DNA of 23,911 nt, taken from the IMG/VR virus record IMGVR_UViG_3300018428_000181, positions 1 to 23,911 of that record; one strand, written 5' to 3'. Each line of letters starts with the position of its first letter. Within the stretch, counting starts at the first letter, position 1. The notes beneath the pieces were generated by a model. The model did not search any database. It saw only the letters and a program-made list of their open reading frames with translations, and was not told where the DNA came from. The stretch comes from a virus. The translations under genes and the position numbers were made by a program. Below are positions 6,783 through 12,781 of this stretch, piece by piece.

Positions 6783-6790
6783 TATAAATA
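6783..6790 (+). promoter_or_regulatory. T4-type late promoter TATAAATA
   Basis: An exact TATAAATA octamer in an 84-base intergenic gap, 40 bases before the ATG at 6830. T4-like phages use this box with phage sigma factor gp55 and the clamp gp45. No -35 element is visible, as expected. Confidence 0.75.
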
Positions 6791-10950: not shown

Positions 10951-11373
10951 ATGGACAAAAAAGAACAAATAATAGATATTGATTTCGATGGTTATGTTCC
11001 AGTGGAAATATCAATATCTAATCCAGATGATTTCCTTAAGATAAGAGAAACTTTAACAAGAATAGGTATCGCAAGTAGAAAGGATAATACATTGTATCAG
11101 TCCTGTCATATATTACATAAGAAAGGCAGATACTTTATTGTTCACTTTAAAGAACTTTTTATCTTAGATGGAAAACCATCTGATTTGACAACAAATGATT
11201 TACAAAGGCGAAACACAATCGCAAAACTTCTACAAGATTGGAATCTATTAAAGGTATTGAATCCTATAGAAGAATTAGTATTTGCGCCTTTAAGCCAAAT
11301 TAAAATTATTCCTTTCAAAGATAAGGAATCATGGAGTTTGGTGCCAAAATACAATATTGGCAAAAAGAAATAA
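10951..11373 (+). CDS. regA: RegA translational repressor
   Basis: An RNA-binding protein that blocks ribosome access on phage early mRNAs. The 140-residue product aligns by eye with T4 RegA: PDDFLKIRETLTRIGIA, LYQSCHILHKKGRYFIVHFKE, TIAKLLQDWNL and WSLVPKYNIG match T4 wording at long stretches. It is longer than T4 RegA (122) by an N-terminal extension of about 17 residues (MDKKEQIIDIDFDGYVP). AGGAA 6 bases upstream serves as ribosome site. It lies downstream of gp62, while in T4 regA is on the other side of gp62, so local order is rearranged. Expected targets are the TGAGGA leaders in this window. Confidence 0.93.
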   Translation: MDKKEQIIDIDFDGYVPVEISISNPDDFLKIRETLTRIGIASRKDNTLYQSCHILHKKGRYFIVHFKELFILDGKPSDLTTNDLQRRNTIAKLLQDWNLLKVLNPIEELVFAPLSQIKIIPFKDKESWSLVPKYNIGKKK

Positions 11374-11390
11374 ATTATTAAAATTATATT

Positions 11391-12017
11391 ATGCTACTAA
11401 ATTTAAACCCTTTGGTTTATTACGAAGATAAATTTTTAACACCGTTTTTGTGTGAACACCTCATTGATTTGGCAAGGGAAAGATTACAACCAAGCAAAGT
11501 TTTAGGTGATGATGGTAAGCCTGTGGAACATGAGGCCAGATCTTCAGAACACGCATTTATACCACACCACGAAACAAAATTTACACAAGAAATCGTAGCA
11601 AAAGTATCAATAAAAATGGGTATTCACCCAAATCAAGCAGAACAATTACAAGTTATTAGATATGAGGCAGGACAGCAATATAAGGCACATTATGATTCTT
11701 TTGAAGGAGACAATTTAGAAAGAGCATTAGAAAATGGCGGACAGAGAATTGCTACAGCATTAATATATTTGAATAATCCAATATCAGGCGGAGGAACAAA
11801 TTTTCCTGTATTAAAAAGGAGAGTTGATGCTGTTCAAGGAAGAGTTGTGTTTTTTACAAATACATATTTAGGAAATACTATCAGACATCCATATTCTCAA
11901 CATGGTGGCGAACCTGTGGGAAGAGGTGAAAAATGGGCCTGTAACTTATGGTATAGGGAAAAGGAATATAAAAGAGGAGAAGCAAATGGCAACAAAATCA
12001 CAGAAAACTCAAGGTGA
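11391..12017 (+). CDS. Prolyl 4-hydroxylase-type 2OG-Fe(II) oxygenase
   Basis: Hydroxylates a protein or small substrate using 2-oxoglutarate, oxygen and Fe(II). The 208-residue protein has the full P4H set. The metal ligands are H100-Y-D102 in KAHYDSF and H171 in SQHGGEPV, and K181 in EKWACNLWY is placed to bind 2-oxoglutarate. It also has LIYLNN and GGGTNFP at 125-139. N-terminal ENFLTPF-like wording (DKFLTPFLCEHL) is typical of phage members. No Shine-Dalgarno is evident before the ATG. The substrate is unknown. The 3' end overlaps the next small gene by 32 bases. Confidence 0.9.
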   Translation: MLLNLNPLVYYEDKFLTPFLCEHLIDLARERLQPSKVLGDDGKPVEHEARSSEHAFIPHHETKFTQEIVAKVSIKMGIHPNQAEQLQVIRYEAGQQYKAHYDSFEGDNLERALENGGQRIATALIYLNNPISGGGTNFPVLKRRVDAVQGRVVFFTNTYLGNTIRHPYSQHGGEPVGRGEKWACNLWYREKEYKRGEANGNKITENSR

Positions 12018-12213
12018 GTATAACAAAAAAGCTAGGATTGTTTCAGATTATGAAAATGATTTAATCTTTGAACAATATAGAGAAGGTTTGCTAAAGCAGG
12101 AATTTATCTCATACGAGGAAACACCTGCTGGAGTAAAAATTACCAGGATAAATAGAAAATATCAAAAAAATGGTAATTATTCAGATACGTCAAGCATAGA
12201 AATTTTAGTTTAG
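11986..12213 (+). CDS. Small hypothetical protein (75 aa)
   Basis: A 75-residue polar protein starting at ATG 11986 with GAGGAG about 6 bases upstream. A start at 11902 would overlap the oxygenase by 116 bases and is not favoured. The sequence is charged and basic at the start (MATKSQKTQGEYNKKARIV), then acidic and helical, and it has no cysteines. It overlaps the 2OG oxygenase gene and ends four bases before a late promoter. No family is recognised. Confidence 0.68.
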   Translation: MATKSQKTQGEYNKKARIVSDYENDLIFEQYREGLLKQEFISYEETPAGVKITRINRKYQKNGNYSDTSSIEILV

Positions 12214-12216
12214 ACG

Positions 12217-12224
12217 TATAAATA
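12217..12224 (+). promoter_or_regulatory. T4-type late promoter for hsp20
   Basis: Exact TATAAATA. It lies 101 bases before the hsp20 ATG, against 28-40 bases at the other three late promoters, so the transcript should begin near 12230 with a leader of about 95 bases. Confidence 0.75.
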
Positions 12225-12229
12225 TAAAC

Positions 12230-12319
12230 GAGAACTTCAAAAGAGCTCAGTAGAGCTCGGTTCTCACTTAACGTAGACGCCATAATGGGTCTATACATTT
12301 AACTTGCTTAATATAGGAG
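12230..12319 (+). promoter_or_regulatory. Structured hsp20 leader; candidate ROSE-like RNA thermometer
   Basis: Three hairpins can be drawn in series. The first pairs GAGAAC 12230-12235 with GTTCTC 12260-12265 around an inner GAGCTC/GAGCTC stem with loop AGTA. The second pairs TAGAC 12274-12278 with GTCTA 12289-12293 and continues past a bulged G to CCA/TGG. The third pairs C-UUGCU at 12303-12308 with the Shine-Dalgarno AGGAG at 12315-12319, leaving one bulged G. This last element has the UYGCU/AGGA form known from ROSE thermometers of small heat-shock genes. Drawn by eye; function is inference. Confidence 0.5.
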
Positions 12320-12325
12320 AAAAAA

Positions 12326-12781
12326 ATGGTAAGAATAAATACGACAAACTTTAACGACTTGTTAGAAAGACAAGTTGCACAAATTGAGAGAAACTTTTTT
12401 GGTTATGATAGGTTGCTCAACAATCTAAGAGTAGCTGAATTTCCAAAAGATAACTTTCCACCTTACAACGTAGTCAAACATGACGACTTGAACTTTACTA
12501 TTGAATTAGCAGTAGCAGGGTTTTCAATCGACGACATTGAGATTACTCGCAAAGTTGTAGATGGCCAGGCAAAACTAGAAGTTGCTGGTGAACAAGGTGA
12601 AAGCGACGCAGAATATACCCACAAAGGTATTGCAGGTAGAAAATTCAAAAGAGTTTGGAACCTAGCTGATACAGTTGAAATTAAATCTGCAAAACTGGTT
12701 AATGGCATTTTGAGCATTGATGTTGAAAATGTAATTCCAGATGAGGAAAAACCTCAAGTGATTAAAATTAGTAATAAGTAA
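12326..12781 (+). CDS. hsp20: Small heat-shock protein Hsp20 (IbpA-like)
   Basis: An ATP-independent chaperone that holds unfolding proteins. The 151-residue protein has an alpha-crystallin domain from about 45 to 140: PPYNVVKHDDLNFTIELAVAGF, GIAGRKFKRVWNL and AKLVNGILSIDVE, the last being the A-x-L-x-N-G-x-L motif. The short N-terminus (NTTNFNDLLERQVAQI, FFGYDRLL) resembles IbpA. A late promoter and a long structured leader precede it. Hsp20 genes are common in marine T4-like phages, where a role in virion assembly or stress is proposed but unproven. AGGAG precedes the ATG by 6 bases. Confidence 0.93.
   Translation: MVRINTTNFNDLLERQVAQIERNFFGYDRLLNNLRVAEFPKDNFPPYNVVKHDDLNFTIELAVAGFSIDDIEITRKVVDGQAKLEVAGEQGESDAEYTHKGIAGRKFKRVWNLADTVEIKSAKLVNGILSIDVENVIPDEEKPQVIKISNK

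Follow-up and report, generated by a model that had tools for sequence, protein, structure and literature searches.

Genomic context and architecture of the hsp20 leader

The window, by which we mean the whole stretch of DNA analysed here, is a 23.9-kb IMG/VR virus record that carries T4-like replication genes. Its hsp20 gene encodes a protein of 151 aa, matches phrog_432 (Hsp20 heat shock protein, E 8e-37) and sits between regA and the DNA polymerase gene; in several named Kyanoviridae (C48C1, S-PM2, Bellamy and S-RSM4), hsp20 adjoins regA or lies toward the polymerase gene. The features of the locus are as follows.

10951-11373, regA
11902-12213, ORF of 103 aa without PHROG match, directly upstream of the late promoter
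12217..12224, + strand, T4-type late promoter TATAAATA, predicted start ~12230
12230..12265, + strand, hairpin A, the minimal form of element X, at the predicted mRNA 5' end; in order GAGAAC, UUCAAAA, GAGCUC, AGUA, GAGCUC, G, GUUCUC
12273..12294, + strand, ROSE hairpin I; outer stem, C12278-G12289, bulged G12279, C12280-G12288, C12281-G12287
12303..12319, + strand, ROSE hairpin II; C12303-G12319, U12304-A12318, U12305-G12317, C12307-G12316, U12308-A12315
12304..12308, + strand, anti-Shine-Dalgarno motif UUGCU (the UYGCU of ROSE)
12315..12319, + strand, Shine-Dalgarno AGGAG
12326..12781, + strand, hsp20
15113, start of the DNA polymerase gene
18386, start of the UvsX-like recombinase gene

T4-type late promoters carry TATAAATA at -13 to -6. 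By this spacing rule, the hsp20 transcript would start at about G12230, the first base of hairpin A, and its leader would be ~96 nt long. The leaders behind the promoters at 6783, 10904 and 20987 come to ~23-34 nt, which agrees with the contrast drawn in the first-pass annotation (about 95 nt at hsp20 versus 20-35 nt at the other late promoters). A fifth TATAAATA lies at 1455, within the end of a small ORF. The five occurrences in this AT-rich window are not above chance (4.3 expected), and all five are on the coding strand. Additionally, the distance between a TATAAATA-like box and the 5' base of hairpin I is mostly 9-13 nt in representative relatives.

The leader contains the three serial hairpins that the first-pass annotation had described. 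Specifically, in the last of them UUGCU and C12303 pair with AGGAG around a single bulged G, which is G12306, and the hairpin covers the Shine-Dalgarno. The whole leader folds better than 200 of 200 shuffles (z -4.3), and hairpin A contributes much to this value.

Conservation and covariation of the two-hairpin element

To place the window among its relatives, we collected 205 distinct phage hsp20 leaders by Hsp20 searches of IMG/VR. UYGCU followed by AGGA precedes the start codon in 194 of the 205, as against one of 97 control genes, which were other genes with an AGGA Shine-Dalgarno from the same loci. Beyond these 194, UYGCU..AGGA lies closer to the start codon in L219, L220, L221, L254 and L262, and in L048 and L094 UUGCU stands before GGAGG. 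Named carriers include Mosig, Melnitz, S-PM2, S-ShM2 and P-SSM4. Conservation of the short two-hairpin ROSE-like element spans T4-like marine phages whose hosts belong to several groups, and we regard its identity as a conserved structured leader as near certain.

Hairpin I was searched for with a score that takes in the outer stem, the Y-G, the bulged G and the inner stem; a score of at least 9 was reached by 65% of 127 non-redundant leaders and by 1% of shuffles. In raw-leader alignments made with MAFFT (A4, A5 and A6), the Shine-Dalgarno and the 3' half of hairpin I were out of place, and we excluded these alignments from the covariation analysis. Alignment A7 was instead N-padded to fix the register of 60 leaders and is hence fitted to the structure, so that we also ran a test in which hairpin I was anchored by sequence only (YGCY..RGG; 71 leaders). 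In this test, the share of leaders that form each of the first four outer pairs is 92, 94, 94 and 82%, versus 14-59% in slid registers (true-register z 7.8-9.9), and these pairs are of several Watson-Crick types. In the 60 register-fixed leaders, the hairpin I helix is 91.5% paired, with two-sided changes at seven of nine pairs.

Covariation extends to hairpin II. The pair below its core is C-G in 26 leaders, U-A in 28 and A-U in 11 (z 7.3), and the pair above the core is U-A in 99 and A-U in 6 (z 5.3); the core pairs themselves cannot covary, since they overlap the Shine-Dalgarno. Over the whole structure, 91.2% of the cells in A7 are paired, and covariation amounts to 0.520, compared with 0.190 after shuffling and 0.05-0.17 in slid registers. 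The U, G, C and U of UYGCU are invariant in A7, the second base being U or C, and the bulged-G columns are invariant as well. Compensatory changes that keep the pairing in related phages, for which the first-pass annotation had called, are seen in both ROSE hairpins.

Relationship to Rfam families

A scan of the whole window at Rfam gathering scores gave no match. On positions 12100-12450, ROSE_3 (RF02523) came out top of 4227 Rfam families, at 12271-12331, with 20.4 bits and an E value of 0.049. The same model matches the hsp20 leaders of relatives, with 34.1 bits in Melnitz-3, 26.8 bits in C48C1, up to 35.8 bits (L061) in the seven of 20 IMG/VR loci that it matches, 33.0 bits in L269, 30.0 bits in L030 and, as the best, 40.6 bits in L430 (E 3e-5). 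The gathering cut-off of ROSE_3, 43 bits, is reached neither by the window nor by any phage leader tested, and being below it the phage leaders are not filed as members of this family. In the comparison with known ROSE models that had been proposed for this leader, ROSE_3 is the best family for the window and is significant in several relatives; the window itself stays below the curated cut-off.

Several phage leaders reach ROSE_3 E values of 1e-3 to 3e-5 at the correct place despite their sub-cut-off scores. When the full L003-L008 loci were run through cmscan with E values up to 1 allowed, nothing matched, though the motif is seen by eye in their leaders. We also considered the freshwater-2 RNA for the window leader and rejected it, as it scores weaker there than ROSE_3; on one relative's hsp20 leader (L068, 716-812), freshwater-2 (RF02980) scores 32.5 bits against a cut-off of 49.9.

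We then built a covariance model, R1, from 60 register-fixed phage leaders. In a 427-kb set, R1 matches 41 of 42 hsp20-bearing contigs, once each; it gave no match in the five hsp20-less contigs, and nothing else in the set was matched. Several of the matched leaders are identical to the seed L030, so these matches are not all independent. Among named phages, R1 matches C48C1, Pelagibacter phage Mosig, Methylophilales phage Melnitz-3, S-ShM2, P-SSM7, Bellamy, S-RSM4, P-RSM4 and Syn30, nine in all; S-PM2 and P-SSM4 match too, but were seeds. S-TIM5, which is outside Kyanoviridae, gave no R1 match. The model also finds a Pseudomonas-type hsp20 leader (L263, E 1e-5) and Burkholderiales hsp20 leaders (L270, L273 and L287, E 2e-5), and the Salmonella ibpA leader L265 gave no R1 match at E up to 1. 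As ROSE_3 matches phage leaders and R1 matches bacterial ones, the phage and the short bacterial ROSE elements recognise each other in both directions.

Several further leaders came up in these searches. In the unrelated jumbo phage PA5oct of Pseudomonas (L264), the hsp20 leader is a near-ROSE variant (R1 E value 0.019), in which a GUGCC..GGGC hairpin is accompanied by CUUGCG ahead of AAAGGAG. SAR11-type cellular hsp20 leaders (L272, L277, L283, L288, L312 and similar ones) consist of a GCC..GG hairpin, a hairpin of GCAGGUUU..CUGC and then AACGCUUAAGGAGG; here ACGCU replaces UYGCU, and the R1 match is weak or absent. Phage-type hsp20 leaders also occur on contigs filed under archaeal, Acidimicrobiales, Parcubacteria, Pelagibacter or Nonlabens genomes (L267, L325, L335, L337, L338, L343 and L344; one contig is 188 kb long); these are probably phage sequences that were binned together with cellular genomes or contaminate them. 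Bacterial-looking ibpA-like genes in records named as Pseudomonas, Campylobacter or Salmonella phages (L263, MG065691, MG065686 and OR851202) may be host contamination.

An additional RNA module at the predicted 5' end

Hairpin A had been read as the first hairpin of the thermometer, and this part of the first-pass annotation does not hold. A role as part of ROSE was rejected because hairpin A is missing from nearly all other ROSE-bearing leaders; it is a separate conserved RNA module, which we call element X. Hairpin A was also considered as an intrinsic terminator and rejected, being without a U-run.

Element X consists of C-UUNAAAA-GAGCUC paired with GAGCUC-G-G, of which the window has the minimal, one-bulge form. 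The sequence UUNAAAAGAGCUCGG recurs in IMG/VR; among the two-copy loci listed, all 34 of 34 have hsp20 downstream, with ROSE in between in nearly all, and further loci were found. In dozens of phage hsp20 leaders element X precedes ROSE, usually as a dyad-symmetric tandem composed, in order, of an outer stem, a 7-nt bulge, GAGCUC/GAGCUC, a 7-nt bulge on the other strand, an inner stem and an apical domain. The six outer pairs of the tandem are present in all 18 distinct outer stems, with compensatory types at several. Besides the window (12230-12265), loci that carry element X upstream of ROSE include L030, L269, L350, L359, L372, L377, L378, L382, L384, L397, L422, L430 and L440. The apical domain of the tandem is variable or conserved; in the long form it is conserved, as GGAACUUGGAUUGGGCAACGCCGACAUCAAGUGACCCC.

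In L427, L480, L481 and L484, the tandem lies downstream of an ORF, inside an intrinsic-terminator-like hairpin that is followed by a U-run; judging the sequence by eye, we take the ORF to be the T4-like gp32 single-strand-binding protein in L427, L481 and L484. An Rfam search with the leaders that bear element X returned no family matching it, and neither the window nor the tandem module had a meaningful blastn match among named phages. In the window's group, hsp20 may be controlled by a composite leader in which a viral ROSE and element X, as a new structured RNA class, work together, a proposal that we put forward tentatively and at slightly less than even odds. As a guess, element X could be the binding site of a dimeric phage protein or an end-protecting module.

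Predicted folding across temperature

In local folds of the window, hairpin II is the minimum-energy structure, with -4.0 kcal/mol at 5 °C and -0.1 kcal/mol at 37 °C. In folds from -38 to +6, the Shine-Dalgarno of the phage hsp20 leaders is less exposed than those of 88 control genes at every temperature (z ~-7); for the window, the predicted exposure is 0.000 at 5 °C and climbs to 0.055 at 45 °C. When 20 nt of coding sequence are added, the 37 °C fold of the window prefers CUUGCUU paired with the coding region, and with 60 nt the Shine-Dalgarno exposure of the hsp20 leaders is no different from that of control genes. Whole-leader thermodynamics do not separate hsp20 from control genes; local folds alone do so. 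Predicted melting is gradual, Mosig and C48C1 looking partly open even in the cold, and these values come from a nearest-neighbour energy model, which handles non-canonical pairs poorly. Overall, the prediction across temperatures is equivocal: local folds support an AGGAG that is hidden in the cold and opens with heat, and folds that include coding sequence do not.

Proposed control of Hsp20 translation

Covariation and the similarity to ROSE_3 support the ROSE-like reading of the leader. The two-hairpin ROSE of Pseudomonas ibpA is repressive at 25 °C and open at 42 °C, when hairpin II has melted and hairpin I persists; the bulged G (G39 in P. aeruginosa) is needed for regulation, and once it is deleted the element stays closed (PMC3669281). 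The phage leaders likewise keep an imperfect, bulged pairing instead of a perfect one, and as their anatomy is the same as that of Pseudomonas ibpA, the same action is the best inference. We propose that the late hsp20 transcript, beginning near 12230, would carry in its leader a two-hairpin ROSE-like element of the Pseudomonas ibpA type. In the cold, hairpin II would pair C12303 and UUGCU with AGGAG round the conserved bulged G and keep ribosomes off, with hairpin I as a stable neighbour that may aid the folding of the weak hairpin II; on warming, hairpin II would melt and Hsp20 would be translated. Temperature control of the phage hsp20 is, in our assessment, likely, and the whole account of ROSE-like thermo-control of Hsp20 translation appears to be the best explanation of the leader, with a probability of roughly 0.7.

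The leader might instead serve mainly for feedback, in which free phage Hsp20 would bind its own leader and repress it, aggregates formed during infection would titrate the protein away, and misfolded protein rather than temperature would act as the trigger. According to the account of Miwa 2021 in PMC10981312, E. coli IbpA holds down the translation of its own mRNA, and aggregation lifts this repression. The element also appears to be kept by phages whose hosts live in thermally stable water. A protein target alone, however, needs no weak Shine-Dalgarno hairpin with a bulged G, and we consider feedback as the main role less likely than thermo-control, though a serious rival to it. It is compatible with thermo-control, both having been reported for E. 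coli ibpA mRNA, and IbpA-like feedback by Hsp20 could use the same phage element.

Less probable still is a constitutive brake or mRNA stabiliser that would fix translation at a low level or protect the 5' end independently of temperature. The position of hairpin A exactly at the predicted 5' end, that of hairpin I near the 5' end in most relatives and the gradual melting predicted by thermodynamics would suit such a role, which nevertheless leaves unexplained why UYGCU with its bulged G is so strictly kept opposite the Shine-Dalgarno, why the element goes with small heat-shock genes and why it resembles ROSE_3. Chance pairing in an AT-rich leader, to which the weak hairpin II and the modest ROSE_3 score of the window taken singly would point, is contradicted by conservation and covariation in hundreds of relatives and can be dismissed almost entirely; the evidence against chance is comparative.

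Significance and comparison with known systems

The viral ROSE-like element is real and widespread. In the open-access literature, to which our search was confined, no phage ROSE element turned up in any description, in line with the first-pass annotation, which knew of none; for Melnitz, the published account mentions hsp20 and a glutamine riboswitch, and no thermometer. Cultured marine T4-like cyanophages have hsp20 among their core genes, with capsid scaffolding as the suggested function (PMC3037559), and the Hsp20 of S-ShM2 has been purified and characterised (PMC5028025). A conserved ROSE-like switch predicts that Hsp20 is made upon heat or protein misfolding, and not as a constitutive structural helper, which can be tested in cultured phages such as S-ShM2, S-PM2, Syn30, Mosig and Melnitz. 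If this holds, ROSE-like elements would extend from bacteria to viruses, beside the unrelated lambda cIII thermometer, and ocean temperature would be concretely linked to phage gene expression. Element X, the additional module of the window's group, looks like a structured RNA missing from Rfam.

The closest known system is the short ROSE of Pseudomonas ibpA (PMC3669281), and the closest Rfam model is RF02523 (ROSE_3). Like the phage element, the Pseudomonas ibpA ROSE is a ~60-nt leader of a small heat-shock gene with two hairpins and a bulged G, the second hairpin pairing U(U/C)GCU with the Shine-Dalgarno, and the UGCC/GGG in the first hairpin of ROSE_3 is found in phages too. The phage element differs in being viral and AT-rich and in standing behind T4-type late promoters rather than sigma-32 promoters; in the window, moreover, a further RNA module stands ahead of it. 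ROSE1 of Bradyrhizobium hspA and the enterobacterial ibpA thermometers share the UYGCU/Shine-Dalgarno hairpin upstream of a small heat-shock gene, but are longer, with three to four hairpins. The lambda cIII RNA thermometer also lies in a phage mRNA leader and responds to temperature, whereas it switches between two alternative conformations, is occluded at high temperature and is unrelated in structure and gene (PMC4166951). Finally, the cyanobacterial hsp17-type thermometers and the ROSE-like leader of Anabaena are heat-shock leaders from the host phylum of many of these phages, although the hsp17 element, compared here by description only, is a single hairpin (PMC4166951).
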